A stretch of 27,112 nucleotides of DNA, from IMG/VR virus record IMGVR_UViG_3300027712_000120, positions 1 to 27,112 of that record; one strand, given 5' to 3'. Below, in pieces: positions 5,180-27,112 of this stretch. A program made the position numbers and the translations under genes. The first letter of the stretch is position 1. Each line of letters starts with the position of its first letter. The DNA is from a virus. The notes beneath the pieces were generated by a model. The model was not told the DNA's origin, ran no database searches, and saw only the letters and a list, made by a program, of their open reading frames with translations.

Positions 5180-5860
5180 ATGTTTGGTTATATCTACTGT
5201 GTAATAAATTTAATTAATGACAAGTTTTATATCGGTAAAAAATATGGAAATTACGATAGCTTATATTATGGTAGTGGAAAAATTATTAAAGAATCCATAC
5301 AAAAATATGGTTTAATTAATTTCAAGATTTATAAAATTTGTGATTGTTTTGATGAAAAAGATATCAATGAAAAAGAAATATATTATATAGATTTATTAAA
5401 ACCTAATTATAATATAGCAAAAGGCGGCACCGGAGGAAATACACTTTTATTTTATGGAGAACAAGATAAAAAACAAATAATAAAAAAAAGAGCAAGTTCT
5501 TTATCTGCCAATTGGAAAAATAAAACTCTTGAGGAGCGCAAAGAGTGGGGAAATAAAATAAGTTTTTCAAAGAAGGGAAAAACATATAATAGGATTGGTT
5601 ACCATCACAGTCCTGAAGTTATAGAAAGAATAAAGGAATCCAATAAAAAAACTGCGGAAAAAAGAACTTCTGATTGGTTTCAAAATCACAAAAAAGCCGC
5701 AGAAAAAAGAAAAGGGATACCAAATAAAAAGGCATACAAATCTGTTGAAATTCTTGGAGTTGTATATGAATCCTTTAAAGAAGCTTCGTTAAGGCTAAAT
5801 GTTAGTAGGGTTACAATTAATAATTGGGTGAAAAAAGGTAAAGGAAAATTAATATGCTAG
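5180..5860 (+). CDS. GIY-YIG homing endonuclease 1
   Basis: 226 residues. GIY-YIG domain in the first 90 residues: GYIYCVIN (3-10), FYIGKK (16-21) and YYGSGK give the catalytic Tyr-Tyr-Arg/Lys surface; the metal-binding glutamate is in NEKEIYYIDLLKP, followed by YNIAKGGTGG. The C-terminal half is lysine-rich with NUMOD3-like segments (KGKTYNRIG, KGIPNKK) and ends in a NUMOD1/HTH-like module (SFKEASLRLNVSRVTINNWV) for DNA recognition. It is free-standing, not intron-encoded, with its own late promoter and strong ribosome site. It is more AT-rich than its neighbours, typical of an invading element. Its stop overlaps the start of the cytidylyltransferase gene by 7 bases. Confidence 0.9.
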   Translation: MFGYIYCVINLINDKFYIGKKYGNYDSLYYGSGKIIKESIQKYGLINFKIYKICDCFDEKDINEKEIYYIDLLKPNYNIAKGGTGGNTLLFYGEQDKKQIIKKRASSLSANWKNKTLEERKEWGNKISFSKKGKTYNRIGYHHSPEVIERIKESNKKTAEKRTSDWFQNHKKAAEKRKGIPNKKAYKSVEILGVVYESFKEASLRLNVSRVTINNWVKKGKGKLIC

Positions 5861-6315
5861 CTTTGTCGGATGAGTTTGTTGGCCGTCCAGTAGGATTTAC
5901 TTGTAGTTCTTGGGATTTGTTACACGCTGGGCATATTTTAATGCTTGCCGAATGTAAACAGATTTGTGATTATTTAATTGTTGGCTTGCAAACAGACCCA
6001 ACAATTGATAGACCAGAAATTAAAAACAAACCAGTCCAATCCATTGTTGAACGCTATGTTCAGCTATCAGCCGTTAAATTTGTAGATGAAATTATTGTCT
6101 ATGACACAGAAAAAGACCTAGAAGATTTATTAATGTTTTTGCCCATCACTATGCGTATTTGTGGTGAAGAATATAAAGAAAGACATCTAACAGGTCGTGA
6201 TATCTGTGATAATCGTGGTATTAAAACATATTACAATTCTCGCACCCATCGGTTCAGTTCTTCCGAGTTAAGACAAAGAACTTATCAATCTGAATTAAAT
6301 AAGGTAACAAAATGA
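5854..6315 (+). CDS. Cytidylyltransferase-like nucleotidyltransferase (TagD/RfaE type)
   Basis: 153 residues of the HxGH nucleotidyltransferase superfamily. HAGH at residues 24-27 (WDLLHAGHILML) binds the NTP; RYVQLSAVKFVDE is the conserved middle; and RFSSSELR at 133-140 matches the ISSTxLR-type motif. These enzymes join CTP (or ATP) to glycerol-3-phosphate, heptose-1-phosphate or similar, giving a CDP- or ADP-alcohol/sugar. The GIY-YIG gene has been placed immediately before it, so its original upstream neighbour is unclear. The substrate cannot be read from sequence; a surface-polymer or cofactor precursor is possible. The family call is strong. Confidence 0.85.
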   Translation: MLALSDEFVGRPVGFTCSSWDLLHAGHILMLAECKQICDYLIVGLQTDPTIDRPEIKNKPVQSIVERYVQLSAVKFVDEIIVYDTEKDLEDLLMFLPITMRICGEEYKERHLTGRDICDNRGIKTYYNSRTHRFSSSELRQRTYQSELNKVTK

Positions 6316-7008: not shown

Positions 7009-8298
7009 ATGACTAGATATTATACAAATGTTGCCTGTGTTGGCAATAACATTTTCTTTCGTGGCGTTAAAGACGGCAGGCGAGTTAAACTTAAAATAGG
7101 TTACTCGCCTACTTTGTTTTCGCCTAGCAAAAAACCCACACAATTCAAATCTCTTACTGGTGAACATCTTGAACCGATGAAGTTTGAGAACATTCGTGAA
7201 GCTCGTGATTTTGTAAAAAGATATAATGAAGTTTCTAATTTCAAAATTTATGGCCAAACTCGATATGAATATGCCTTCATCGCTGATGAACATCAAGGCA
7301 TGGTCGATTGGAATATGGATGATATCTTGGTTGCTATATGTGATATCGAGGTTGGTTCGGAGAATGGATTTCCTGACCCATATAAAGCAGAAGAACCTAT
7401 CACAGCAATCTGTATATCCTTTCTAAAAGGTGAAACAGTTGTATTTGGTTGTGATGATTATATTGTTCAAGGTTCTGAAACTTATTTTAAATGCTCAGAT
7501 GAAACTGAACTATGTAAAAAGTTCTTGGCATATTGGGTTGAAAATTGTCCTGATGTATTGACTGGTTGGAACACCAAATTTTTTGATATACCATATCTCG
7601 TCAATCGTTTCCGTAAAATTCTTGGTGAAGAAGAAACTAAGAAGTTATCTCCATGGAATATGATTGGTGAACGCAAGGCTGTTGTAAACAATCGTGAGTT
7701 GATTGCGTATGACATGGTTGGTGTATCATCACTAGACTATATTGAACTATACAGATGGTATGCGCCAGGGGGCAAATCACAAGAATCATATAAATTGGAT
7801 AATATTGCCAATGTAGAACTTGGTGATAGTAAATTGTCATTTGATGAATATGATAACCTTCATGCTTTGTATCGTGAAAACTTCCAAAAGTTTATTGAAT
7901 ATAACATTCAAGATTGTAATCTTATTGTTCGCATGGAAGAAAAACTAAAGTTGATTGAACTTGGTTTAACTTTGGCCTATGATACAAAGACCAACTATGA
8001 AGATATCTTTGCACAAACTCGTATGTGGGATTCAATGACATATGCTTATCTCTTAGAGAAAGGTATTGTTGTTCCACCAAAAATTGTTCAAAGTAAAACA
8101 TCAGCATTTGAAGGTGCTTATGTTAAAGACCCACAAGTTGGTATGCACCACTATATTGCTAGCTTTGACCTAAATTCACTCTACCCTCACCTTATGATGC
8201 AGTATTCCATAAGTCCTGAAAATATTGTAGATAGAAATTATGTCGAAAACAGAAAAAAAGAGGTAATGCAAGAGTTAAGAATGAGAAATACTAAATAA
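7009..8298 (+). CDS. 43: DNA polymerase, N-terminal part (T4 gp43-like, split gene)
   Basis: Family B DNA polymerase fragment of 429 residues holding the N-terminal domain, the 3'-5' exonuclease and the first catalytic motif of the palm. Exo I is CDIEVGSENGFPD with D112 and E114, the same numbering as T4 gp43; Exo II is TGWNTKFFDIPYLVNR; Exo III is YNIQDCNLIVRMEEK. Motif A is SFDLNSLYPHLMMQ around D387. After YSISPENIVD the protein ends in a short tail unlike the family (NYVENRKKEVMQEL...) and stops. The start is supported by the T4-like N-terminus (YYTNVACVGNNI). No Shine-Dalgarno is visible. Motifs B and C are in the separate gene 8861-10219, so activity would need assembly of the two products. 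Confidence 0.93.
   Translation: MTRYYTNVACVGNNIFFRGVKDGRRVKLKIGYSPTLFSPSKKPTQFKSLTGEHLEPMKFENIREARDFVKRYNEVSNFKIYGQTRYEYAFIADEHQGMVDWNMDDILVAICDIEVGSENGFPDPYKAEEPITAICISFLKGETVVFGCDDYIVQGSETYFKCSDETELCKKFLAYWVENCPDVLTGWNTKFFDIPYLVNRFRKILGEEETKKLSPWNMIGERKAVVNNRELIAYDMVGVSSLDYIELYRWYAPGGKSQESYKLDNIANVELGDSKLSFDEYDNLHALYRENFQKFIEYNIQDCNLIVRMEEKLKLIELGLTLAYDTKTNYEDIFAQTRMWDSMTYAYLLEKGIVVPPKIVQSKTSAFEGAYVKDPQVGMHHYIASFDLNSLYPHLMMQYSISPENIVDRNYVENRKKEVMQELRMRNTK
8245..8258 (+). repeat. 14-base direct repeat, copy 1 (mate at 8835-8848)
   Basis: GAAAACAGAAAAAA occurs in the 3' tail of the first polymerase part and again at 8835-8848 at the 3' end of the HNH gene. Both copies are read in the same register as Glu-Asn-Arg-Lys-Lys. 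The two copies bracket most of the endonuclease insertion. Confidence 0.55.
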
Positions 8299-8317
8299 GT
8301 AGATGTGGTTACTTATT
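8291..8317 (+). promoter_or_regulatory. Hairpin overlapping a late-promoter-like sequence before the HNH gene
   Basis: A perfect 8-bp hairpin, AATAAGTA 8294-8301 with TACTTATT 8310-8317 and an 8-base loop, follows the polymerase stop and ends just before the HNH start region (AGAAGA 8318-8323, ATG 8328). CTAAATAA at 8291-8298 resembles late promoter variants of T4-like phages. A late transcript would lose the 5' arm, as known for T4 homing endonuclease genes such as I-TevI; this is an inference here. Confidence 0.42.
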
Positions 8318-8327
8318 AGAAGAATCA

Positions 8328-8861
8328 ATGAAATACAATATTACCAAAGATAAACTCTATGAATTGTTTATTATCAAGAATATAAGAAGGAGTGAGGTTG
8401 CTGAATATTTTGGTTGTTCGGATGCCAATATTAAAAAACACCTACAAAAATTTGAAATTAAGAAACCCTTTGATTTAGAGTGTAAAAATAAAGAACGAAA
8501 GGCCTTAGTAAATTGTTTATATTGTGGTAACGAATATAAAACACAAAAGTTTCGGACTGAAAGTGATAAGTATGATTCAAAATATTGTAGTTATTCCTGT
8601 GCTCAAAAAAGTAGATATTTGGGTGAGGACCATAAACGTAGAAATGGAAATGAAATTGCAGCAAGGCGTAGAGCTAGAATTAGGAATCAAACTCCAAAAT
8701 TAAGCAAAGAAGAAAAGAAAAAGTTACAAGAATATTATTTGATTTGTCCTAAAGGGTGTGAAGTAGACCATATACAACCAATTGCAAAAGGTGGTTTACA
8801 TCATCCAGACAATTTACAAATATTAACCAGAACTGAAAACAGAAAAAAGTGGTGTAAATAA
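8328..8861 (+). CDS. HNH homing endonuclease inserted in the DNA polymerase gene
   Basis: 177 residues. The N-terminal region (residues 1-45) is an HTH-like module (RRSEVAEYFGCSDANIKKHLQKF). The middle has a Cys-rich element (CLYCGNEY, then KYCSYSCAQKS), probably zinc-binding. The C-terminal HNH domain is CEVDHIQPIAKGGLHHPDNLQILTRTENRKK, with the catalytic His in VDH and Asn in PDNLQ. It is free-standing, in a different frame from both polymerase parts, and overlaps polymerase part 2 by one base (TAATG). That leaves no room for the 3' core of a group I intron after the ORF. All key residues appear intact, so it may be active. Confidence 0.9.
   Translation: MKYNITKDKLYELFIIKNIRRSEVAEYFGCSDANIKKHLQKFEIKKPFDLECKNKERKALVNCLYCGNEYKTQKFRTESDKYDSKYCSYSCAQKSRYLGEDHKRRNGNEIAARRRARIRNQTPKLSKEEKKKLQEYYLICPKGCEVDHIQPIAKGGLHHPDNLQILTRTENRKKWCK
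8835..8848 (+). repeat. 14-base direct repeat, copy 2
   Basis: Second copy of GAAAACAGAAAAAA, coding Glu-Asn-Arg-Lys-Lys at the end of the HNH domain. See the copy at 8245-8258. Confidence 0.55.
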
Positions 8862-10219
8862 TGTTTCGTAATGTAAAAGAATTAACCACCGAAGAACTAC
8901 AAAAAGAACTTCAAGCCATAGAATTATTTGAACAAGAAATTGGTAAAGTCAATGTTGAAAATATGTTGAATAAATCAATTGATACTTCTTTTCTTGGTCC
9001 ATTGAATTGCACACTTACTCCCAACGGCCAACTGTTTCGAACTGACAAGAAAGGCTTTTTGCCTCAAATGTTGGAAGATATATATGTTGATAGAAGTAAA
9101 TTTAAAAAGTTAATGTTAAAAGCTAAACAAGATTATGAAAATGAAACTGATCCAATTAAACGCAAAGAAATTAAAAACCTTGTTGCTAGATATGACAATC
9201 TACAACTTGCGAAAAAGGTTTCTCTCAACTCTGCTTACGGTGCTTTGGGTAGTCAGTATTTCCGTTTCTACGATTTACGGATGGCTCTTGGTGTCACGAC
9301 TGCCGGACAATTAAGTATTCGTTGGATTGAAGCCAAGATTAATACTTACATGAATAAGATTTTGAATACAACTGGTATAGATTATGTAATTGCTTCTGAT
9401 ACAGATTCGATTTATCTCCGTATGGGTGAATTAGTTGATAAGTTTATTAAAGACCAATCAGATAAACAGAAAGTGGTTTCTCTTATGGATAAAATCTGTG
9501 AAGAAAAGATACAACCTTATATTGATGAATCGTATGATGAGTTGGCAAGTTATGTTCATGCCTACGCACAGAAGATGGTAATGAAGCGTGAAGGTCTTTC
9601 TGACAAAGGAATTTGGACTGCTAAGAAGCGTTATATTCTTAATGTGTATAACAACGAAGGCGTTCAGTATAATGAACCTCAAATGAAAGTTATGGGTCTT
9701 GAAATGGTTAAGTCATCTACGCCAAGTGCTATTCGGCAGAAGATGAAAGAATCAATCAAGATTATGTTGCAAGGAACAGAAGATGATATTCATAAGTTTA
9801 TTGCTGACTTTAAGGCTGAGTTCAATACATTACCGCCAGAAGAAATCTCTTTTCCTCGTGGACTAAATGGTTTACAAGAGTATTCAGATAAAATTACAAT
9901 GTATAAGAAAGGCACACCGATCCATGTTAAGGGTGCTATTCTGTATAATTACTATCTGAAACAACTAGGCTTAACTAAACAATATCCATTGATTCAGAAT
10001 GGCGAAAAGTTGAAGTTTACTTATTTGAAACAACCTAATCCATTTAAAGATATGGTTATTTCATATCCAGTTCGGTTGCCAAAAGAGTTTGGCATCCATG
10101 AATATATTGATTATGATATGCAATTCAATAAAGCGTTTCTTGAACCAATTAAAGTAATTTTAGATTGTATGCAATGGACAACAGAAAAGGATAGTTCATT
10201 AGAGGACTTTTTTGGATGA
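8861..10219 (+). CDS. 43: DNA polymerase, C-terminal part (T4 gp43-like, split gene)
   Basis: 452 residues carrying the fingers, the rest of the palm and the thumb. After a short N-terminal stretch it resumes the family sequence at TLTPNGQLFRTDKKGFLPQ. Motif B is KKVSLNSAYGALGSQYFRFYD (about residues 117-137), motif C is SDTDSIYL with D180 and D182, and KKRYILNV plus KVMGLEMVKSSTPSAIR are the later conserved blocks. It starts at ATG 8861, overlapping the HNH stop by one base, so translation probably depends on coupling to the endonuclease gene. It probably pairs with the 7009-8298 product; split 43 genes are known in some Aeromonas T4-like phages. It overlaps the next gene by 4 bases. Confidence 0.93.
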   Translation: MFRNVKELTTEELQKELQAIELFEQEIGKVNVENMLNKSIDTSFLGPLNCTLTPNGQLFRTDKKGFLPQMLEDIYVDRSKFKKLMLKAKQDYENETDPIKRKEIKNLVARYDNLQLAKKVSLNSAYGALGSQYFRFYDLRMALGVTTAGQLSIRWIEAKINTYMNKILNTTGIDYVIASDTDSIYLRMGELVDKFIKDQSDKQKVVSLMDKICEEKIQPYIDESYDELASYVHAYAQKMVMKREGLSDKGIWTAKKRYILNVYNNEGVQYNEPQMKVMGLEMVKSSTPSAIRQKMKESIKIMLQGTEDDIHKFIADFKAEFNTLPPEEISFPRGLNGLQEYSDKITMYKKGTPIHVKGAILYNYYLKQLGLTKQYPLIQNGEKLKFTYLKQPNPFKDMVISYPVRLPKEFGIHEYIDYDMQFNKAFLEPIKVILDCMQWTTEKDSSLEDFFG

Positions 10220-10776
10220 ACAATATAAAGATACTAAAAACAGGAATCAATGTGTCAAAAATACTGGCACAATTGAAACAATATCCTGAAGATTGGGAAG
10301 CACAAAAGAAAATGGACGGCCATATAGAATCATTACTCAGTCGTGGCTATGATGATATACCCGTTGGAGTTTTACAATTGGTTCTTGGTGGCGTTGAGGA
10401 TATAAATGATTTTGTTGGTGATACTGAAATTTGTGTTCCAACTCCAGCATATTACAAACACACAGAGATTATTGGTTTCCTAAAGAGGCACTTTAAAGGT
10501 TTCAAACGATGTGGTTTTCTATCACTAGAAAAAGGTGGTGAAGTAGGTTTACACATTGATGAAGGCAAATATTATTTAAATAAAGATAGGTTTCATTTAT
10601 CAATTCAAGGTACTTACGAATATACTTGTGGCGAAGATACTGTTACTGTTGAACCTGGCACACTACTTTGGTTTAATAATAAGAAGATGCATGGTACGCA
10701 AAACATTGGAGATTGTATTCGTATAACTTTTGTATTTGATGTACCACATAAGAAAAATCTAACATACTATTCATAA
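10216..10776 (+). CDS. Aspartyl/asparaginyl beta-hydroxylase-like 2-oxoglutarate oxygenase
   Basis: 186 residues. The C-terminal two thirds fit the Fe(II)/2-oxoglutarate double-stranded beta helix of the Asp/Asn hydroxylase family: H113-x-D115 in GEVGLHIDEG, HLSIQG at 127-132, distal H159 in WFNNKKMHGTQNIG, and R169 in CIRITFVFDV for 2-oxoglutarate. The substrate is unknown; a virion or host protein, or a small molecule, are possible. It sits between polymerase and a membrane protein with 4- and 1-base overlaps, so it is expressed with replication genes. A second, different 2-oxoglutarate enzyme lies at 14324. Confidence 0.8.
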   Translation: MNNIKILKTGINVSKILAQLKQYPEDWEAQKKMDGHIESLLSRGYDDIPVGVLQLVLGGVEDINDFVGDTEICVPTPAYYKHTEIIGFLKRHFKGFKRCGFLSLEKGGEVGLHIDEGKYYLNKDRFHLSIQGTYEYTCGEDTVTVEPGTLLWFNNKKMHGTQNIGDCIRITFVFDVPHKKNLTYYS

Positions 10777-12970: not shown

Positions 12971-14324
12971 TGAAGAATATGCTCGTAAGGTAATCCCATT
13001 TATTAGACCAGATTACTTTTCAGATATAAATGAAAAGAATATCTTCAAAGAAGTTCAAGATTTTGCATTAAAATATAAAACACTTCCTACTCACGAAGCT
13101 CTTGTAATCAATTTCACAGAAAATAAAACGCTGTCTGAATCAGAAGTTCGGACAGCGATTTCTATTTTGGATGAAGTGCAACAAGATAAAGAGTTAAGTG
13201 AACAACAATGGCTAATAGAACAAACTGAAAAGTTTTGCCAAGATAAAGCTATTTACAATTCTATCATGGAAGCAGTTAGTATCCTTGATGATAAAACTGG
13301 TAAGAAAGCCAAAGGTGAAATTCCAAAGTTATTGAGTGATGCTCTTGGAGTATCATTTGATAATTCTGTTGGCCATGATTATATAAATGATTCTGATTCC
13401 CGTTATGATTTCTATCACAAAGTAGAATCAAGGGTTCGTTTTGACCTTGACCTATTCAATAAGATTACTAAGGGTGGTTTTCCAATTAAGACCTTGAATG
13501 TGGCCTTGGCTGGAACTGGTGTTGGTAAATCTCTGTTTATGTGCCATTGTTCTGCTAGTTCAATTAGTCAAGGACATAATGTATTGTATATCACGATGGA
13601 AATGGCTGAAGAAAAGATTGCTGAGCGTATTGATGCTAACTTGCTAAATATAGATTTGAATGAATTACAAACAATTAGCCGTGAAGATTATGCTCACAAA
13701 TTTGATATACTAAAGAACAAGACACAAGGTAAACTAATCATTAAAGAATACCCTACTGCGGCTGCTCATGCAGGACATTTTCGTGCTTTGTTAAATGAAT
13801 TGAAATTGAAGAAGAACTTTACACCAGATATTATTTTTATCGACTATCTTAATATTTGTTGTTCAGCTCGTATTAAAATGGGTGCAAGTATTAATTCATA
13901 TGCATATATCAAGTCTATTGCTGAAGAACTTAGAGGTCTAGCTGTAGAGTTTGGTGTTCCAGTTGTAACTGCGACACAAACAACGAGAAGTGGATTTACA
14001 AACACAGATGTAGGTCTTGAAGATACGAGTGAATCTTTTGGTTTACCTGCAACTGCCGACTTTATGTTTGCTTTGATTAGTACCGAAGAACTCGAGCAGC
14101 TGAATCAGATTATGGTAAAACAGTTGAAGAATCGTTATGGTGATCCTAATCTATACAAACGATTTGTAATTGGTGTTGACCGTGCTAAGATGAGGTTATA
14201 TGATGCTGAACAATCAGCGCAAGCCAATATTGTAGATTCTGGTCAAGATGATGATAAACCTTTAAATACCTTTGGTAACCGTGAAAGGAAATTTAACTCT
14301 AAATTTGAGGGAGTAAAAGTATAA
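12927..14324 (+). CDS. 41: Replicative DNA helicase (T4 gp41-like, DnaB family)
   Basis: Hexameric 5'-3' helicase that unwinds the fork and works with the primase. 465 residues. It follows T4 gp41 closely by eye: an N-terminal helical domain, then SFDNSVGHDYINDSDSRY, then the RecA-like core NKITKGGFPIKTLNVALAG with Walker A GTGVGKS near residue 200, YITMEMAEEKIAERID, Walker B FIDYLNIC, AEELRGLAVEFGVPVVTATQ, and SFGLPATADFMFAL, and finally QLKNRYGDPNLYKRF. The ATG lies 44 bases inside the preceding gene, implying coupling. The stop and the next start share one base. Identity is firm. Confidence 0.95.
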   Translation: MKRLEKTILKNLIYNEEYARKVIPFIRPDYFSDINEKNIFKEVQDFALKYKTLPTHEALVINFTENKTLSESEVRTAISILDEVQQDKELSEQQWLIEQTEKFCQDKAIYNSIMEAVSILDDKTGKKAKGEIPKLLSDALGVSFDNSVGHDYINDSDSRYDFYHKVESRVRFDLDLFNKITKGGFPIKTLNVALAGTGVGKSLFMCHCSASSISQGHNVLYITMEMAEEKIAERIDANLLNIDLNELQTISREDYAHKFDILKNKTQGKLIIKEYPTAAAHAGHFRALLNELKLKKNFTPDIIFIDYLNICCSARIKMGASINSYAYIKSIAEELRGLAVEFGVPVVTATQTTRSGFTNTDVGLEDTSESFGLPATADFMFALISTEELEQLNQIMVKQLKNRYGDPNLYKRFVIGVDRAKMRLYDAEQSAQANIVDSGQDDDKPLNTFGNRERKFNSKFEGVKV

Positions 14325-14887
14325 TGGAATATATTAGTTATTGGGATAATGTTTTGACCAAAGATGTATGCAAAGCAATTATCGACCGATTTGAAGATAA
14401 AACTGAACAACAAGAGTTGATTCTCTACGAAGGCCACCGAAGATTTAATGAAATTAATATTACAAAACATTTAGATGATTGGTCTGATATTCAAAATATA
14501 TTGTTAGATAGTATGCAATTGCATCTTGGAAAATATATGCGCCAATTTGGAATTGATGGTAAGAATTGGCCAAAAGATTTGGCATATGAAGAATTTCGTA
14601 TTAAGAAATATGAACCAAATGATTTAGATGAATTCAAATTACACGTTGATGTGGGTGATTATGCTTCAGCTCGTAGATTCTTGGTGATGTTCTTCTACTT
14701 AAATGATGTTGAAGAAGGTGGTGAAACGATATTCAAAAAAGGATTAGGTTCTAAGGTTGAATTATCAGTTAAACCACAAACAGGAAGAATGGTTATGTTT
14801 CCGCCCATGTGGACACACCCACACGCTGGTTTAAAACCAATTAGTGGACCAAAATACATAGTGGGCGGTTATTTACATTACTTATGA
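14324..14887 (+). CDS. Prolyl 4-hydroxylase-like 2-oxoglutarate/Fe(II) oxygenase
   Basis: 187 residues of the P4H-type oxygenase family. Iron ligands are H107 and D109 (FKLHVDVGDY) and a distal histidine in WTHPHAG, probably H167. K177 in GPKYIVGGYLHY fits the 2-oxoglutarate-binding basic residue. The core FLVMFFYLNDVEEGGETIF is the conserved beta-helix strand pair. These proteins are frequent in aquatic T4-like phages; substrates are unknown, and hydroxylation of a virion or host protein is the usual guess. Adjacent overlaps are 1 and 4 bases, linking it to the helicase and to a HExxH protein. Confidence 0.88.
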   Translation: MEYISYWDNVLTKDVCKAIIDRFEDKTEQQELILYEGHRRFNEINITKHLDDWSDIQNILLDSMQLHLGKYMRQFGIDGKNWPKDLAYEEFRIKKYEPNDLDEFKLHVDVGDYASARRFLVMFFYLNDVEEGGETIFKKGLGSKVELSVKPQTGRMVMFPPMWTHPHAGLKPISGPKYIVGGYLHYL

Positions 14888-18346: not shown

Positions 18347-18994
18347 ATGTATGGATTCATATATCTAACAACTAATAAAATTAATGGTAAAAAGTATATT
18401 GGAATGTGTAAAAATACACACCGAGAAAACTACATTGGCTCTGGTAAATTGCTAAAACAGGCTGTCAAAAAATATGGCAAAAAGAGTTTCAAAAGAGATG
18501 TTTTACAAGAATGTAAAACTTTTGATGAACTTAGTGAAGCTGAAATTTATTGGATTAAATTTTATAATGCAGTAGAAGATTCTAACTTCTATAATTTAAC
18601 TTCTGGTGGTTTTGGTGGTAATAGTGAGTATTTAAAAGATTATTGGTCACATCTAAATAAGGAAGAAAAAAAAGTTTGTAGAAATTGGTCAAAAAGAAGC
18701 ATGGTTGGTTTTAATAATCCTATGTATGGGAAAAAACATAGTATAGAAACCAAAAAAATGATTGGATTAAAATCGGTAAATAGAAATTGGAATAAAAATA
18801 CACCTTGGATGATTGGTGAAAATAATCATATGAGTAAGAGGGTTTTAGTTGAGATGAATAAAATAAAAAAAGAATATTCTTCATTATCATTTTTTAGCAA
18901 AATGGTTCCTAATATTCCATATTCCACATTAAAAAGTATTGCACAAAAGAATAGATTTTCTAAAAAATATAACTTAAAAATAACTTATGTATAA
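18347..18994 (+). CDS. GIY-YIG homing endonuclease 2
   Basis: 215 residues. GIY-YIG domain: GFIYLTTN (3-10), KYIGMCKN (about 16-23), YIGSGKLLKQAVKKYG, then the metal-binding glutamate in ELSEAEIYWIKFYN and the YNLTSGGFGGN closing segment. A NUMOD3 motif (FNNPMYGKKHSIETKKMIG) lies near residue 122, and a basic C-terminal DNA-binding tail follows. It is free-standing, with a late promoter and ribosome site nearly the same as GIY-YIG gene 1, though the proteins differ beyond the catalytic core. It is inserted at the 5' end of the KxDG gene, whose N-terminal sequence is found on both sides. Its stop overlaps the ATG at 18987. Confidence 0.9.
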   Translation: MYGFIYLTTNKINGKKYIGMCKNTHRENYIGSGKLLKQAVKKYGKKSFKRDVLQECKTFDELSEAEIYWIKFYNAVEDSNFYNLTSGGFGGNSEYLKDYWSHLNKEEKKVCRNWSKRSMVGFNNPMYGKKHSIETKKMIGLKSVNRNWNKNTPWMIGENNHMSKRVLVEMNKIKKEYSSLSFFSKMVPNIPYSTLKSIAQKNRFSKKYNLKITYV

Positions 18995-20904: not shown

Positions 20905-20925
20905 CTAATACAATTGGAGTATATT

Positions 20926-21768
20926 ATGCGTGATTTGATTATTGGTGCAACCACCAACTATGACTGGGATAAATTAAAGTATTGGGTTAATTCTATTAAC
21001 CAATCTGGTTTCAAAGGCGATAAAGTAATGATTGCCTTTAATATTTCATTTGCTACTGTCAATAAATTAATAGAAGCAGGCTTTCAGGTCATCACACCTG
21101 GCAAAATTAACGAAGAAAAACAATGTTATGAATACCAATCTTCTCTACCAATCCATGTAGAGAGATTTGTTCACATTTATAATTTCTTAAAAGATAATGA
21201 ATATCGGTTTGTTATTACTACCGATGTAAAAGATGTAATTTTTCAGCAAGACCCAACAACATACATTGGCCTAGAAATGCCTGGTTCCAAGTTGATGTTT
21301 GCTTCCGAATCAATCAAATACAAAGATGAACCATGGGGAAATCAGAACCTCATTGAAACCTTTGGTCCCTATTTCCATAATATTTTCAAAGAGAATGAGA
21401 TTTATAATGTAGGTGTTTTGGCAGGTCGTGGAAATGCGATGCGTGATTTATGTGCGATGATATTCGTGATGTCGGTAAATCGTCCTATCCCAATCGTGGA
21501 TCAATCCACATTCAACTTTATGATATCGCAAGAGCCATATAAATCAGTTGCTCGTTACATGAAGTCGGAAGATGGGTGGGCTTGCCAATTAGGCACAACT
21601 GCCGACCCAAGCAAGCTTGCTGAGTTTAAACCATTCTTATTAGAAGAATCTCCTAAAATGGTTGAAGGCAAAGTTACAACATCCAAAGGAAAAGACTTTA
21701 CAATTGTTCATCAATATGATAGAGTACCAGAATGGAAAAAGGTTATAGAGGAAAAATATAATGACTAA
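20926..21768 (+). CDS. Glycosyltransferase-like protein
   Basis: 280 residues from ATG 20926; the TTG at 20914 belongs to its ribosome site TTGGAG, a leader nearly identical to that of gene 45 (TACAAT, TGGAGTAT, TTATGC). The core RFVITTDVKDVIFQQDP has the DxxD-type nucleotide-sugar site of GT-A-like enzymes, with PIVDQSTFNFM as the later conserved acceptor-side motif and IVHQYDRVPEW near the end. It probably transfers a sugar or cyclitol from an NDP donor. It opens the sugar cluster and overlaps the epimerase gene by 8 bases. Family likely, substrate unknown. Confidence 0.68.
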   Translation: MRDLIIGATTNYDWDKLKYWVNSINQSGFKGDKVMIAFNISFATVNKLIEAGFQVITPGKINEEKQCYEYQSSLPIHVERFVHIYNFLKDNEYRFVITTDVKDVIFQQDPTTYIGLEMPGSKLMFASESIKYKDEPWGNQNLIETFGPYFHNIFKENEIYNVGVLAGRGNAMRDLCAMIFVMSVNRPIPIVDQSTFNFMISQEPYKSVARYMKSEDGWACQLGTTADPSKLAEFKPFLLEESPKMVEGKVTTSKGKDFTIVHQYDRVPEWKKVIEEKYND

Positions 21769-22789
21769 AAGAGTATTAATTACGGGCGGTGCAGGATTTA
21801 TCGCTCATCACCTGATTGAAACAATCCTTGATAATACGGATTGGACAATTGTTTCGCTTGACCGATTAGACTTCTCTGGTAATTTGAATCGCCTTGAAGA
21901 TATTATGAAGAAGTATTCGCCTGAACAAAAGAAACGAGTTGAGATTGTATTCCATGATTTGCGAGCTGAAGTAAACCCACAAACTGCTGGCCTGATTGGT
22001 GATTGTCAATTAGTATTGCATCTTGCAGCTGGTTCTCATGTAGACCGCTCAATTGAATTCCCAATGGAGTTTGTGCAAGACAATGTAATTGGTACAGTTA
22101 ATCTATTACAGTTTGCTCGCACACTAAAGAACTTAGAGAAGTTTGTTTATTTCTCAACAGATGAAGTGTTTGGCCCAGCGCCAGAAGGTGTTGACTATAA
22201 AGAAAGAGACCGCTATAATGCTACGAATCCATATTCAGCATCTAAGGCCGCAGGTGAAGAAATGTGTGTTGCATTTGAAAACACATACAATATGCCAATC
22301 ATCGTTACTCATACAATGAATGTATTTGGTGAACGCCAACATCCTGAAAAATTTATTCCTAAGGCAATTCGTTATGCTCGTGATGGTGAAACACTTACTA
22401 TCCATTCTGATAGAAGCAAAACAAAGGCAGGTTCACGCCATTATGTTCATGCGAAAGATGTTGCTGATGGTTTGATGTTCATTCTTAATCTGCCTGATGA
22501 TTACATTCGTATTCCCGATTTTGGTGGTGCAAAGATTCCTAAGTTTAACATTGTCGGTCCCGATGAAGTAGATAACTTAGAACTAGCTAAATTAATTGCT
22601 GAAGCACAAAACAAGGAACTTAAATATGCGATGGTTGACTTTCATTCATCCAGACCTGGCCACGATTTGCGTTACGCTTTGTCTGGTGATTATATGGCAT
22701 CTTTAGGGTGGAAACCAAAAATTTCGTTGCGTGAACGAATCAAAGGAATGGTTTTTTGGTCTTTAAAAAATGATAAGTGGTTAAAATGA
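21761..22789 (+). CDS. NAD-dependent NDP-sugar epimerase/dehydratase (RmlB-like)
   Basis: 342 residues of the extended short-chain dehydrogenase family. The NAD site is ITGGAGFIAHHL at residues 7-18; HLAAGSHVDRSI is the conserved substrate loop; STDEVFG with PYSASK (about residue 157) supplies the Thr-Asp-Glu and Tyr-Lys catalytic residues of dTDP-glucose 4,6-dehydratases. RHYVHAKDVADG and the C-terminal SRPGHDLRYALSG are also typical of RmlB. It would form a 4-keto-6-deoxy sugar nucleotide or epimerise one. It overlaps its neighbours by 8 and 4 bases, so it is part of the sugar operon. Confidence 0.88.
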   Translation: MTKRVLITGGAGFIAHHLIETILDNTDWTIVSLDRLDFSGNLNRLEDIMKKYSPEQKKRVEIVFHDLRAEVNPQTAGLIGDCQLVLHLAAGSHVDRSIEFPMEFVQDNVIGTVNLLQFARTLKNLEKFVYFSTDEVFGPAPEGVDYKERDRYNATNPYSASKAAGEEMCVAFENTYNMPIIVTHTMNVFGERQHPEKFIPKAIRYARDGETLTIHSDRSKTKAGSRHYVHAKDVADGLMFILNLPDDYIRIPDFGGAKIPKFNIVGPDEVDNLELAKLIAEAQNKELKYAMVDFHSSRPGHDLRYALSGDYMASLGWKPKISLRERIKGMVFWSLKNDKWLK

Positions 22790-23457
22790 AACTAAAAGAA
22801 ATCTTTTGGAACTTAGAAAAAGGTTCAACTAAGTGGTCTGGTTACTTTGATGTGTATGAAAAACATCTAAGTAAATTTATTGGCAATTCACCAAGAATCT
22901 TAGAGATAGGAGTTCTCGGTGGCGGTTCAATTGAAATGTGGCAGAAATATTTTGGTGAAGATACTGCTGTGATTGGTATTGATATCAATCCTGAATGTCT
23001 AACATACAAATATGATGGTGATGTTCAAATCATTATGGGTAACCAAGGTGATGAGAATTTCTGGAAACAATTTGCGGAAGAAAATGGTAAGTTTGATATT
23101 ATCATTGATGATGGTGGTCATACCATGGATCAGCAAGTAACCACACTAAGATGTATGTTTCCATATTTGAATGATGGTGGTGTGTTTGCTGTTGAAGATA
23201 CACACACAAGTTATTGGACTAATTGGGGTGGCGGTTACAAAGAACCACAAACATTCCTTGAATATTCCAAAAAAATAACTGATGTTCTTAATCAACAACA
23301 CTTTCAAGGTAATAACTACATTTTACCAACAATGCTAGAGAACTATAAAGGTTTATATTCAACAACATTCTATAATAGTATGGTTGTATTTGAGAAAGAG
23401 AATCTCAAAGAATTTGGTATCACAGACAACAAACAAAATGTTGGAAGAGATTTATGA
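22786..23457 (+). CDS. SAM-dependent methyltransferase, sugar O-methyltransferase-like
   Basis: 223 residues from ATG 22786 (4-base overlap with the previous stop; the GTG at 22777 is inside the previous gene). SAM-binding motif I is ILEIGVLGGGSIEMW, motif II is IGIDINPEC and motif III-like is FDIIIDDGGHTMDQQ, followed by FAVEDTHTSYWTNWGG. The combination 'DDGGH ... EDxHTSYW' is characteristic of the MycE/ElmM group that O-methylates deoxysugars in antibiotic glycosides. In this cluster it would methylate a sugar or cyclitol of a surface glycan or metabolite. Enzyme class is confident, substrate inferred from context. Confidence 0.82.
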   Translation: MKLKEIFWNLEKGSTKWSGYFDVYEKHLSKFIGNSPRILEIGVLGGGSIEMWQKYFGEDTAVIGIDINPECLTYKYDGDVQIIMGNQGDENFWKQFAEENGKFDIIIDDGGHTMDQQVTTLRCMFPYLNDGGVFAVEDTHTSYWTNWGGGYKEPQTFLEYSKKITDVLNQQHFQGNNYILPTMLENYKGLYSTTFYNSMVVFEKENLKEFGITDNKQNVGRDL

Positions 23458-24158
23458 AAATAGCACTTTGCTTATCAGGACAACCCCGTAGTGTAAAACA
23501 AGGCTATGAGTTTGTTAAAAAAAACATATTAGACGGTAACGATGTTACCGTTTTTTGTCAAGTTTGGGAAGCAGATGGTGCAGAAGATATTGAAATTTAT
23601 AAACCAGAAGTCGTGTTGATGGAGAAATCATTAAACACCGACCTATCGAAATACACCAATGTTCCGCCACCTCAACCAAACTGGAAAGTAAAAGACCCAG
23701 CTCGTTCTACTTGGAATCAATTGTATGCTATTAAAGTAGCAAACACACTTAAATCGGTGCATGAACAAAATGAGAATATGAAATTTGATTGGGTTATTCG
23801 TAGTCGTTATGACTTTGCAATCAATGTTAAAATTCCATTTGCAGAACTAGACAATAGTAAGTTGTATATTCCAAATTGCAGGCAAGTTCCAAATCGTGAT
23901 TTTGGTAATGACCAGTTTGCCTTTTCATCTTCAGAAAACATGGACAAGTATGCTGACACATACACACACTTAGATAAATTCTATGATAGTGGCATACAGA
24001 TGATGTGTGAAGATATGATGAGTGCTAATTGGAAAGAAAAAGGCCTTGTTGGTGAAAACTTGGTGTATTGTAACATCAATCATCCATTTCCACCGGGTGC
24101 TTACAATGGCACATGGCATAGTTTGATTAGGATTGATTTTGAGCAATGGCTGCGATAG
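23454..24158 (+). CDS. Putative glycosyltransferase
   Basis: 234 residues, overlapping the methyltransferase stop by 4 bases. The N-terminus KIALCLSGQPRSVKQGYEFV, the central TWNQLYAIKVANTLKSVHEQ, FDWVIRSRYDFAINV and NDQFAFSSSENMDKYA match a family of bacterial and phage glycan-locus proteins of glycosyltransferase type (RSRYDF in place of a DxD). No membrane segment. It probably acts on the same glycan as the other cluster genes. An unusual terminator-like hairpin lies within codons 27-35. It overlaps the nucleotidyltransferase gene by 13 bases. Confidence 0.62.
   Translation: MKIALCLSGQPRSVKQGYEFVKKNILDGNDVTVFCQVWEADGAEDIEIYKPEVVLMEKSLNTDLSKYTNVPPPQPNWKVKDPARSTWNQLYAIKVANTLKSVHEQNENMKFDWVIRSRYDFAINVKIPFAELDNSKLYIPNCRQVPNRDFGNDQFAFSSSENMDKYADTYTHLDKFYDSGIQMMCEDMMSANWKEKGLVGENLVYCNINHPFPPGAYNGTWHSLIRIDFEQWLR
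23531..23556 (+). terminator. Perfect terminator-like hairpin inside a coding region
   Basis: ACGGTAAC (23533-23540), loop GAT, GTTACCGT (23544-23551), then T's to 23556: an 8-bp perfect stem with a three-base loop and a six-T run, in the right order for intrinsic termination on the + strand. It lies about 80 bases into the gene. It may act as an attenuator or be a coding coincidence. Confidence 0.45.
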
Positions 24159-24868
24159 TAATTTGCATGGCTGGTTTGAACACCAGATTCCATGATGTGG
24201 GTTTTGATATACCAAAGTATCTTTTACCTTGGGGTGAAGAAACAATCATACACGAAATTATTAAACAACTAGGTAAGTTTGATGAGGTCTTGTTGTTGGC
24301 CAATAAGCGTGATGTTTATTTTATGCCTGACTTGGTAAAAACAATTGAACCACTTGGTCTTACTAAAGATAACATTCATTACATTGGTGATACAAGTGGT
24401 CAAGCACACACCGCATACATTGGTGCTTCATTACTGAAAGATAGGTTTCAATCATTCTTTGTTCACAATGCTGACACACTATTAGTTGGTAGAAACTTTG
24501 AAGAAATAGAATCAACCATGTCTGATGGTTATGTTGATGTGTTTGTTGCCAATAATCCAAAGTATTCTTATGTCAGGTCAAAAGATGGTGTTGTGACCGA
24601 GATTGTTGAAAAGTCTGCTATCTCTCCATTTGCAAGCTCTGGTATGTATGGATTTTATAGTGCTGATTTGTATCAACAAATGTATGAAGCGTTATCACAA
24701 GGATTTACTGGTAAAGAAATGTATATTGCCAATGTCTTAGATTATATGATAAAGAATGATAAATTTGTTGGTTTAAATGAATTGAATAATGAATATGAAA
24801 CAATAGTTCTTGGTAGTCCACAAGAATATGGACTTGAATTAGCTAAACAGAGTTTAAAATTAAGATGA
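24146..24868 (+). CDS. Sugar/cyclitol-phosphate nucleotidyltransferase
   Basis: 240 residues with the NTP_transferase fold. The nucleotide-binding signature is IVICMAGLNTRFHDVGFDIPKYLLPWG, a variant of GxGxRF...PK (R14, K24), and FFVHNADTLL supplies the metal-binding aspartate. VTEIVEKSAISPFASSGMYGFYSADL is the usual later core. Such enzymes join a sugar-1-phosphate to an NTP. Because kinase and cyclase genes follow directly with 4- and 1-base overlaps, the natural hypothesis is activation of a cyclitol phosphate, as ValB/AcbR do in pseudo-sugar pathways. Family strong, substrate inferred. Confidence 0.8.
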   Translation: MAAIVICMAGLNTRFHDVGFDIPKYLLPWGEETIIHEIIKQLGKFDEVLLLANKRDVYFMPDLVKTIEPLGLTKDNIHYIGDTSGQAHTAYIGASLLKDRFQSFFVHNADTLLVGRNFEEIESTMSDGYVDVFVANNPKYSYVRSKDGVVTEIVEKSAISPFASSGMYGFYSADLYQQMYEALSQGFTGKEMYIANVLDYMIKNDKFVGLNELNNEYETIVLGSPQEYGLELAKQSLKLR

Positions 24869-25827
24869 AAATTACTAAGTTAAAAGGCGGCTCTTTAAGT
24901 AGCACTTCTTTGTATGAAGATGGTGATAACAAATTTATTCGTAAAGCTATCAGCACAAAAGATAACCGTGAATATGGTTATGTTCGTTGGTATTCTCAAT
25001 TAAAAAAACTGCAACGATTTGGTGGAACAGGGCTATTTCCTAAAGTTTTGAGTATTGGTACCACAGATGGTGGTGTATATTTCGATATTGAATATCTTAA
25101 AGGTTATAGAGATATTAAAACTATTCTTAAAGAAGATACTTTAACTGTTCCACAAATTGAACAAATTAATGAAGCAGTATGGCGCTCTTTTGATAATCTA
25201 CACCGTAAAATGTATTTGCCAGTTAAAGGTGCAGGCGCATTGTATTTCAAAGAAGAAGTCATACAGAAGTTGTCTGATGCCTTTAAATATCAAAAGTTTT
25301 ATAATTTCTATGAGTCTGGTTTGTTTGATGCTTTTGAATACAATGGTCGTATTACTCATGGCATTCAAAACTTTTTACCAGAACTAAAAAACTTCTTTGA
25401 TGAATTAAGTTTGACCACAGAAGAAAACATTCATGGTAATCCAACACTTGAAAACATGATGTATTCTTTTGAAGATGATAGGGTGATTTTTATTGACCCA
25501 TATGAAGAAAGTTGTATTGATTCTCGCCTCTTAGATTATTCACAAGTATTACAATGCTCAAGAAGTTACTATGGTCATATAAATGATGGTGAAGTAACCG
25601 TTGATGGGCCAAGTGTTGGATATCATGGCGATATTCCAAATAATTTTATTGTATTCAATAAAAAGTTTGAAGATAAAATAGACCCAGCAGATAGAAAAGC
25701 AATAGACGTGTTAGAGGCAACACAATTCATTCGTATGTTACCATTTAAGTGTGCAGCTGGTGAAATGGAAAAAGCAATTTTCTTTTATGTTCATTCTTGC
25801 CACCTATTAAGTAGAGCTTTCGAATAA
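24865..25827 (+). CDS. APH-fold kinase, putative cyclitol or sugar kinase
   Basis: 320 residues. The N-lobe has a glycine-containing strand and a conserved lysine candidate (GGSLSSTSLYEDGDNKFIRKAI). The C-lobe has the catalytic loop HGNPTLENMM (H190, N192, N197) and the metal-binding IDP (D211) in VIFIDPYEES, the layout of aminoglycoside and choline/sugar kinases, with HGN in place of the more common HGD. That change at the usual catalytic Asp (N192) is notable and could lower or alter activity. The gene sits between a nucleotidyltransferase and a sugar-phosphate cyclase, suggesting phosphorylation of the cyclase product, like AcbM/ValC. Fold likely, role inferred. Confidence 0.68.
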   Translation: MKITKLKGGSLSSTSLYEDGDNKFIRKAISTKDNREYGYVRWYSQLKKLQRFGGTGLFPKVLSIGTTDGGVYFDIEYLKGYRDIKTILKEDTLTVPQIEQINEAVWRSFDNLHRKMYLPVKGAGALYFKEEVIQKLSDAFKYQKFYNFYESGLFDAFEYNGRITHGIQNFLPELKNFFDELSLTTEENIHGNPTLENMMYSFEDDRVIFIDPYEESCIDSRLLDYSQVLQCSRSYYGHINDGEVTVDGPSVGYHGDIPNNFIVFNKKFEDKIDPADRKAIDVLEATQFIRMLPFKCAAGEMEKAIFFYVHSCHLLSRAFE

Positions 25828-26969
25828 TGGAAAATGTATTAACTAAATTTGATAACTATAAACGCACATGGTCTGTCAAGGCAGAACTACCAATTGAGTT
25901 TACACTAAAGTATTCTAGTGATGTATTCAGTTGGAAAAATCACGACTTGTTGAGTTTTGGTGAGTCCAATCGTAGAGTGGTGGTCATAGACCAGACTGTA
26001 TATAAACTATATGGTCAACAATTAGAAGATTACTTTAAAACATTTCAGATAGAATTGAAATTGTTTATCATTGATGCCACAGAAGAAAACAAAGATTGGG
26101 AACACACAGACCAGATTCTAAGGTTCTTTGAAGAAGTTGGTGTCTTGCGTAGAGAAGCAATCATCGTGATTGGTGGTGGTGTTCTACTTGACTTGGTTGG
26201 TTTCTGTTGCTCAATTTATCGTAGAGGCATTCCTTATGTTAAAGTGCCAACTACATTGTTGGCTATTGTAGATGCTTCAGTTGGTGTTAAAGTTGCGGCC
26301 AACCACTTTGGTCGTAGAAATCGTATTGGTGCATATTACCCACCAATTGCCACACTACTAGACAAGAAGTTTATTGCTACACAAGATGAAAGAAACATTG
26401 TTAATGGTATTGCAGAGATATTTAAACTTGCAGTAATCAAAGACAAAGAATTGTTTGAGTTACTTGAAGCAAGTGCAGAGCAACTAATCACCGAGAAGTT
26501 CCAGTTTGGTGCGGTACCAGTTCGTGTAATCAATTCTGCCATTACAGGTATGATTGAAGAATTGGCACCAAATTTATGGGAAAGAAAACTAGACCGATGC
26601 GTTGACTTTGGCCATTCATTCAGTCCTATTATTGAAATGCAAAATGTGGCCACACTACAACATGGTGAGGCGGTTGTATTAGATTGTCTGTTGAGTTCTT
26701 GTTTGGCTAATGTTCGTGGTTATATTGATACTGAAACACTAGAAAGAATCTTTAAGACGGCACATCGTTTAAAATTGCCTGTATTCCATAAAGATTTTTG
26801 TAATTTTGACTTGCTTAAGAAGTCATTATCTGATGCAATGAAACATAGAAACGGTAATCAATACTTACCAGTTCCTGTCGGCATTGGTAACTATAAAATA
26901 TTAAATGATGTAACTGATGATGAAATAAAGAAAGCTTCGGATTTATTTGAAGAAGTTAAATATGAATAA
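25827..26969 (+). CDS. Sugar-phosphate cyclase, 2-epi-5-epi-valiolone synthase-like
   Basis: 380 residues of the dehydroquinate synthase superfamily. NAD site GGGVLLDLVGF (116-126), RRGIPYVKVPTTLLAIVDASVG (132-153), and zinc ligands E197 (NGIAEIFK), H263 (DFGHSFSP) and H279 (LQHGEA), with the 16-residue spacing of the two histidines seen in DHQS. Features point away from DHQS and toward EEVS (AcbC/ValA): RNRIGAYYPP instead of KNLIGxF, and FGHSFSPIIE instead of FGHTxGHAIE. EEVS converts sedoheptulose 7-phosphate to 2-epi-5-epi-valiolone, the first step to C7-cyclitols. It shares one base with the kinase gene and overlaps the next gene by 8. Subfamily is a reading-based judgement. Confidence 0.8.
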   Translation: MENVLTKFDNYKRTWSVKAELPIEFTLKYSSDVFSWKNHDLLSFGESNRRVVVIDQTVYKLYGQQLEDYFKTFQIELKLFIIDATEENKDWEHTDQILRFFEEVGVLRREAIIVIGGGVLLDLVGFCCSIYRRGIPYVKVPTTLLAIVDASVGVKVAANHFGRRNRIGAYYPPIATLLDKKFIATQDERNIVNGIAEIFKLAVIKDKELFELLEASAEQLITEKFQFGAVPVRVINSAITGMIEELAPNLWERKLDRCVDFGHSFSPIIEMQNVATLQHGEAVVLDCLLSSCLANVRGYIDTETLERIFKTAHRLKLPVFHKDFCNFDLLKKSLSDAMKHRNGNQYLPVPVGIGNYKILNDVTDDEIKKASDLFEEVKYE

Positions 26970-27112
26970 GACCATTTTGATTACTGGCACCACAAGTGGT
27001 GTTGGTGCAACATTAGCATCCTCTTACATCGAGAAAGGTTGGAATGTAATTGGTCTTGCTCGTGGTGAATCATTTTTTCAACAATCAAACTACAAACACT
27101 TTAGAGTTGATG
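26962..27112 (+). CDS. Short-chain dehydrogenase/reductase, N-terminal part (runs off the window)
   Basis: Starts at ATG 26962, overlapping the cyclase stop by 8 bases, and is still open at the window end (50 residues visible). TILITGTTSGVGATLASSYIEKGWNVIGLARG is the TGxxxGxG NAD(P)-binding start of the SDR family. In this place it would oxidise or reduce the cyclitol or a related intermediate; AcbL-type dehydrogenases perform this in acarbose synthesis. The catalytic Tyr-x-x-x-Lys lies beyond the window, so only family membership is supported. Confidence 0.75.
   Translation, partial: MNKTILITGTTSGVGATLASSYIEKGWNVIGLARGESFFQQSNYKHFRVD

Follow-up and report, generated by a model that had tools for sequence, protein, structure and literature searches.

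C7-cyclitols are so far known from a few drug-like natural products and sunscreens, and feed both sunscreens and α-glucosidase inhibitors (PMC4426668, PMC9200736). In the acarbose route, 2-epi-5-epi-valiolone is converted to a cyclitol alcohol, phosphorylated at C1 by AcbU, linked to GDP by AcbR and used by AcbS, and the GDP-valienol of this pathway is a biochemical precedent for the route considered here (PMC9200736). Both 2-epi-5-epi-valiolone synthases (EEVS) and nucleoside diphosphate (NDP)-cyclitols are already known, and such chemistry occurs in soil bacteria that make drugs. Here we describe a four-gene unit at positions 24146–27112 (+) of a linear virus record of 27,112 bases (IMG/VR record IMGVR_UViG_3300027712_000120; the window is this whole stretch), encoding a nucleotidyltransferase (NTase), a kinase of the aminoglycoside phosphotransferase (APH) fold, an EEVS-type cyclase and a short-chain dehydrogenase/reductase (SDR). 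We consider it probable, at roughly 0.7, that the proteins of these overlapping genes suffice to make a nucleotide-activated C7-cyclitol, which is then transferred to a glycan, and that this self-contained pathway is mobile. In the open-access literature searched we found no phage-encoded EEVS, and nothing of relevance on valiolone, dehydroquinate synthases or sugar phosphate cyclases in phages or other viruses; the phage-borne pathway, the four-gene unit with its APH-fold kinase and the polysaccharide-locus setting are undescribed there.

The four genes follow one another on the forward strand. The NTase (24146–24868, 240 aa; PF00483, NTP_transferase, 7.9e-7) and the kinase (24865–25827, 320 aa) overlap by ATGA, the kinase and the cyclase (25827–26969, 380 aa; DHQ_synthase 1.1e-33, DHQS_C 7.7e-21) by TAATG, and the cyclase and the SDR, which starts at ATG 26962 and runs to the contig end at 27112, by 8 nt. 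An earlier note on this DNA had described these four genes as following each other with overlapping ends, and this holds. When viral contigs were scanned for the cyclase, 113 matches were obtained and the best 80 of these were kept; the 83 viral loci examined were chosen by their cyclase and are not independent. Within this set the order NTase–kinase–cyclase–SDR occurs in a row in 70/83 loci; 12/83 are cut by contig ends, leaving 70/71 untruncated loci, and in the sole exception (L162) other genes lie between the NTase and the kinase. In a reverse search of viral contigs, with the kinase as query, the cyclase was the next gene in 79/79 loci, mostly on the same contigs. The NTase, kinase and cyclase are under purifying selection (dN/dS 0.05–0.25 against five relatives), and because of this and the gene order kept in all but one of the untruncated loci, the operon is not a chance arrangement. 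The four genes constitute one unit.

The likeness to acarbose and validamycin biosynthesis (AcbC/ValA, AcbU, AcbR/ValB), on which the earlier note had drawn, holds for function: an EEVS-type cyclase acting on sedoheptulose 7-phosphate, a reductase, a kinase and an NTase leading to an NDP-cyclitol used by a transferase, the viral activities being predicted (PMC9200736). It does not extend to protein families. The known cyclitol kinases are akin to ROK or adenosine-kinase proteins, and the known nucleotidyltransferases for cyclitols to glucose-1-phosphate adenylyltransferases (PMC9200736), whereas the viral unit has an APH-fold kinase and a GlmU/RmlA-like NTase, and the likeness is therefore functional only. 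The viral unit also has only four genes, without a C2 epimerase, dehydratase or phosphatase gene; its candidate transferases are of the GT-A type rather than GT-B pseudoglycosyltransferases; and it occurs in viruses and, among cells, in polysaccharide loci.

In a phmmer comparison with solved structures, ValA (4P53) ranks first with 302 bits (46% identity over 337 aligned residues), followed by DDGS (5TPR, 226 bits) and 3-dehydroquinate synthase (DHQS; 3OKF, 139 bits). The zinc ligands E197, H263 and H279 are invariant in the cyclase alignment, and the segments RNRIGAYYPP and FGHSFSP lie where the earlier note had placed them. The positions of the EEVS pocket, numbered as in the ValA structure paper, agree with the numbering in our alignment. 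At these sites D260, H340, F265, M242 and E245 are EEVS-type in 22/22 viral rows, so that the viral cyclases have the same active-site residues as ValA-type EEVS at the tested sites. D260 corresponds to ValA D281, where DDGS has Ala and DHQS Asn; H340 corresponds to ValA H360, where DDGS has Thr and DHQS Val; and P267 discriminates against DHQS but not against DDGS. The eLife gadusol paper states that bacterial EEVS can be told from DDGS by an active-site residue fingerprint (PMC4426668).

A tree of 80 sequences (IQ-TREE; support given as bootstrap/SH-aLRT) leads to the same assignment. The viral cyclases form a single clade (97/89) whose sister group is a pair of Prochlorococcus cyclases (100/96), and together these group with cyclases of other cassettes on the EEVS side (99/90). 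DHQS and an EboD-like sequence are separated at 100/98, and DDGS with a further cyanobacterial group constitute their own clade (100/100); EboD and DDGS thus belong to the same superfamily but to separate branches. Within the EEVS part some of the branching order is only weakly supported. The L025 copy of the cyclase is 97% identical to that of the window. The phylogeny proposed in the earlier note accordingly groups the cyclase with EEVS, as that note had held, and apart from DHQS and DDGS, for a reference set that left out EVS, aminoDHQS and DOIS. The viral subclade is distinct: its genomic partner is the APH-fold kinase, and it has no link to natural-product clusters of actinobacteria. Matches to the cyclase among isolated phages are 25–31% identical; some are annotated as aroB or 3-dehydroquinate synthase, and some come from bacterial-size or unannotated records.

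Two candidate identities were set aside. A DDGS assignment is contradicted by the absence of the DDGS pocket residues (Ala, Trp, Thr) and by the position of the cyclase outside the DDGS clade. For DHQS, D260 and P267 replace the expected Asn (before GH) and His (the second of GHTxGH), the match to TIGR01357 is below its cut-off and the tree places the two apart. It could be argued that a paralogue of DHQS or aminoDHQS is present here, serving aromatic or mC7N metabolism, with the kinase, NTase and SDR belonging to a separate, ordinary sugar pathway; aroB is indeed the top NCBIfam model, with 219 bits, though under its cut-off of 305. Tree and pocket residues exclude DHQS, however, and the four genes travel jointly across phages and phyla, making this explanation highly improbable. 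The product of the cyclase would be 2-epi-5-epi-valiolone or a close stereoisomer, 2-epi-valiolone-like compounds included.

The kinase has no Pfam match, NCBIfam and PHROGs give no useful assignment, and phmmer against the PDB returned chance matches only. An AlphaFold2 model built from 27 sequences (pLDDT 93.4) aligns with APH(4)-Ia (Z 19.2, 262 residues, 3.0 Å) and also with methylthioribose kinase, maltokinase, glucosamine kinase and LicA, so that the predicted structure confirms an APH/choline-kinase fold. The earlier note had asked whether the kinase and NTase belong to families with unrelated established substrates; neither falls in such a family, the kinase being without a Pfam family and, in the viral loci examined, always adjoining the cyclase. 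For the NTase, the signature residues G10, R14, P23 and K24 are invariant in the family alignment, the nearest solved structure (4EVW) is pyrophosphorylase-like, and the profile also matches GlmU, mannose-1-phosphate guanyltransferase and RmlA. We propose that it is a cyclitol-phosphate nucleotidyltransferase.

The SDR is full-length in relatives (for example L025:11133–11813), and these copies have both hallmarks of a classical SDR, the TGxxxGxG motif and the Asn-Ser-Tyr-Lys tetrad. G10, G14, G16, N100, S126, Y139 and K143 are invariant in their alignment, and the family ends in a conserved Glu-Trp-His. In two Prochlorococcus single-cell genomes (L036 and L047), NTase, kinase and cyclase are followed at the SDR position by a 359-aa gene (L036:5981–7060 and L047:5496–6575), which in L036, the only copy scanned, encodes an aldo/keto reductase (1.6e-45). 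That a non-homologous reductase can take the place of the SDR speaks strongly for a reduction step in the pathway.

We suggest the following sequence of reactions. From host sedoheptulose 7-phosphate the EEVS-type cyclase would form 2-epi-5-epi-valiolone or a close stereoisomer, and the SDR, or the aldo/keto reductase in Prochlorococcus, would reduce the ring ketone. The kinase would then add a phosphate, for which the newly formed C1 hydroxyl of the cyclitol is the simplest site, the NTase would form the NDP-cyclitol, and a GT-A glycosyltransferase from the same operon would move the cyclitol onto a glycan of the host surface or virion. What is directly seen is the gene content, the fold and family assignments, the EEVS-type active site, the conserved linkage and a surface-polysaccharide context in three cellular loci; from these we infer every reaction step, the step order, the nucleotide and the acceptor.

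Several points weigh against this pathway. Resting as it does on gene content and comparison of sequences and folds, it includes catalysis as a prediction. The window copy of the SDR is a 50-codon fragment (adh_short 3.2e-5), and the substrate of this enzyme is suggested by position only. With EVS, aminoDHQS and DOIS absent from the tree, the cyclase may make a product other than 2-epi-5-epi-valiolone, and phosphorylation at C7 would be allowed as an alternative with the same genes. In the kinase, Asn replaces the APH catalytic Asp (HGN, residue 192) in every viral and cellular member with the loop visible. The family reads HGNxxxxN in place of the HxDxxxxN motif of APH kinases, with the remaining residues kept (H190-G191-N192-x4-N197 and D211, a DFG-like Asp); because of this substitution, catalytic competence is uncertain. 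The kinase family may thus have lost phosphotransfer and taken on another job, in which case the activated compound would differ from the one we propose. Asn192 is invariant in the family alignment, HGN occurs in all 20 viral and cellular members compared that have the complete motif, and the JAK2 pseudokinase domain ranks first in a PDB profile search, with a weak E of 0.006. The His, the second Asn, D211 and the whole fold are nevertheless retained under purifying selection, and we regard loss of activity as unlikely.

Cellular carriers bear on the fate of the predicted NDP-cyclitol. EEVS-type cyclases are widespread in our genome scan, with the kinase adjoining the cyclase in only a minority; the actinobacterial EEVS loci retrieved are without this kinase. 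Kinase–cyclase neighbours were found in a Woesearchaeota genome (L028), in Myxococcales (L030, L034 and L038), Balneolaceae (L037), Fibrobacteria (L045) and Polynucleobacter sp. 80A-SIGWE (L055), and partial sets in L029 and L031, so that carriers span Myxococcota, Fibrobacterota, Balneolota, Polynucleobacter and one Woesearchaeon. Even samples of three phyla returned the kinase in the seed genomes only, and it is therefore rare in cells; it was not found in the isolated phages searched. A Pfam scan covered the surroundings of four cellular loci. In three of these the set lies among surface-polysaccharide genes: ManC, Wzz and a GDP-mannose 4,6-dehydratase (GMD) are near the L055 set, Polysacc_synt_2 and an ABC exporter near L037, and a polysaccharide flippase near L028. 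The fourth, L036, has the reductase and a CTP_transf_3 cytidylyltransferase.

T4-like aquatic phages provide a second point of comparison. In pelagimyophages and cyanomyophages, too, variable regions hold glycosyltransferases and nucleotide-sugar genes, which include lipopolysaccharide-type glycosyltransferase and deoxysugar genes (PMC7029224). The genes reported there are for ordinary sugars, and no C7-cyclitol cyclase turned up in the literature searched. The glycosyltransferases of pelagimyophages are viewed as modifying the host O-chain (PMC7029224). Because of this view and the surface-glycan context in cells, a host or virion glycan is favoured as the acceptor.

The viral operon itself supplies candidate transferases. 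It is a single forward operon that makes up the last 6.2 kb of the window. The earlier note covered the four genes, but the operon starts further upstream, at about 20914, with four more genes ahead of the NTase. Its order is GT1, 4,6-dehydratase-like SDR, methyltransferase, GT2/DUF7796, NTase, kinase, cyclase and SDR start; in relatives a complete SDR is followed by GT3. GT1 (20914–21768, +), the first gene, is a putative GT-A glycosyltransferase (Nucleotid_trans-like) assigned by a weak PF03407 match (E 0.029) and synteny, and is present in 64/83 viral loci. GT2 (23454–24158, +), present in 68/83, is DUF7796-like with a predicted GT-A fold: its AlphaFold2 model (pLDDT 81.4) matches GT6-type enzymes in Foldseek (E 2e-6) and COLGALT1 (Z 11.6, 181 residues, 4.0 Å). 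The modelled fold suggests GT2 as one candidate cyclitol transferase. GT2 and GT3 show no detectable relationship to each other.

These genes also bear on whether the C7-cyclitol (2-epi-5-epi-valiolone, 2-epi-valiolone or a relative) might end as a soluble small molecule, a photoprotectant or inhibitor, rather than as a glycan unit. DDGS and EEVS products do feed sunscreens and α-glucosidase inhibitors (PMC4426668, PMC9200736), and EVS lies outside the reference set of the tree. Such an end point is nonetheless distinctly unlikely: the kinase and NTase point to activation for transfer, putative GT2/GT3 genes are adjacent in 68–69 of the 83 viral loci, three cellular cassettes lie within polysaccharide clusters and the cyclase lacks the DDGS pocket residues. 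Decoration of phage DNA by the cyclitol is a further alternative, T4 being known to glucosylate its hydroxymethylcytosine, and the operon encodes no evident membrane protein. We consider it very unlikely, since the cellular copies lie within surface-polysaccharide loci and PF00303 (a thymidylate-synthase-family hydroxymethylase) was not found in contigs of the main T4-like lineage (G001–G006, G008, G011 and G012), which are perhaps incomplete.

Many uncultured T4-like aquatic phages carry the conserved four-gene set, and a few bacteria and archaea share it. Most viral copies occupy one site, between genes that we labelled 'lig' and 'NUDtox'. In four loci (L118, L119, L141 and L159) the unit is found in unrelated viral surroundings and therefore moves as a block. 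In a second phage lineage an NTase2, a small cupin and a RuBisCO-like protein directly precede kinase–cyclase–SDR where the contig reaches far enough (L162:760–3329; also L279, L281, L283–L286, L288, L289, L291, L292, L294 and L302). NTase2 of the L162-type phages has 23% identity to the main NTase and is a distant replacement. The RuBisCO-like protein (PF00016 3.5e-43) has 2cwx as its nearest solved structure, and the L162 copy keeps the KxDE motif. By a small balance of the evidence, we favour a broader account in which this four-enzyme NDP-C7-cyclitol route, built from families foreign to the known natural-product pathways, is a transferable surface-glycan module of scattered bacteria and archaea that a large group of T4-like phages from aquatic habitats has acquired for host-surface or virion modification, with a second phage lineage adding a RuBisCO-like protein.

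If the glycan pathway is correct, pseudo-sugars would also serve, in activated form, as units from which microbes and viruses build glycans, and a compact set of four proteins would make them. Some of the so far uncharacterised capacity of abundant aquatic phages to make glycans would thereby be explained. The resulting glycans may lie beyond the reach of host recognition and of common glycosidases.

By helicase, gp23 and polymerase, the nearest isolates are cyanomyoviruses (~52–65% identity). A typical cyanophage identity was set aside, as a search of 12 contigs, perhaps incomplete, revealed neither psbA nor a transaldolase.

The remaining genes of the operon are accessory. The extended SDR (21761–22789, +) is of the dTDP-glucose 4,6-dehydratase type (PF16363 1.1e-50; TIGR01181 1.8e-69, below its cut-off) and occurs in 16/83 viral loci, and the methyltransferase (22777–23457, +) belongs to Methyltransf_24 (PF13578 6.4e-7; phrog_21658 6e-22). 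In one subgroup of relatives the operon continues beyond GT3 with an RfbH-type 3-dehydrase, an epimerase, GT4 and a 2OG-Fe(II) oxygenase. The RfbH-type protein (L025:12523–13809), whose best solved match is CDP-4-keto-6-deoxyglucose-3-dehydrase, has an SFYPAHH motif, with His in place of the lysine that binds pyridoxal phosphate, and a Cys-x-Cys-x8-Cys cluster. With this enzyme and the epimerase in the accessory module, these phages therefore have 3-deoxysugar genes too.

Elsewhere in the window, the gene for a family B DNA polymerase (7009–10219) is split into two open reading frames by one encoding an HNH endonuclease (8328–8861), and a GIY-YIG homing endonuclease with a NUMOD3 motif is encoded at 18347–18994. 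An Asp/Arg-hydroxylase-like gene (10216–10776) and a 2OG-Fe(II) oxygenase-like gene (14324–14887) both lie near replication genes. The gene at 5854–6315 is cytidylyltransferase-like (PF01467), perhaps a heptose- or glycerol-phosphate nucleotidyltransferase, and L116 has a gene like it upstream of its cassette.

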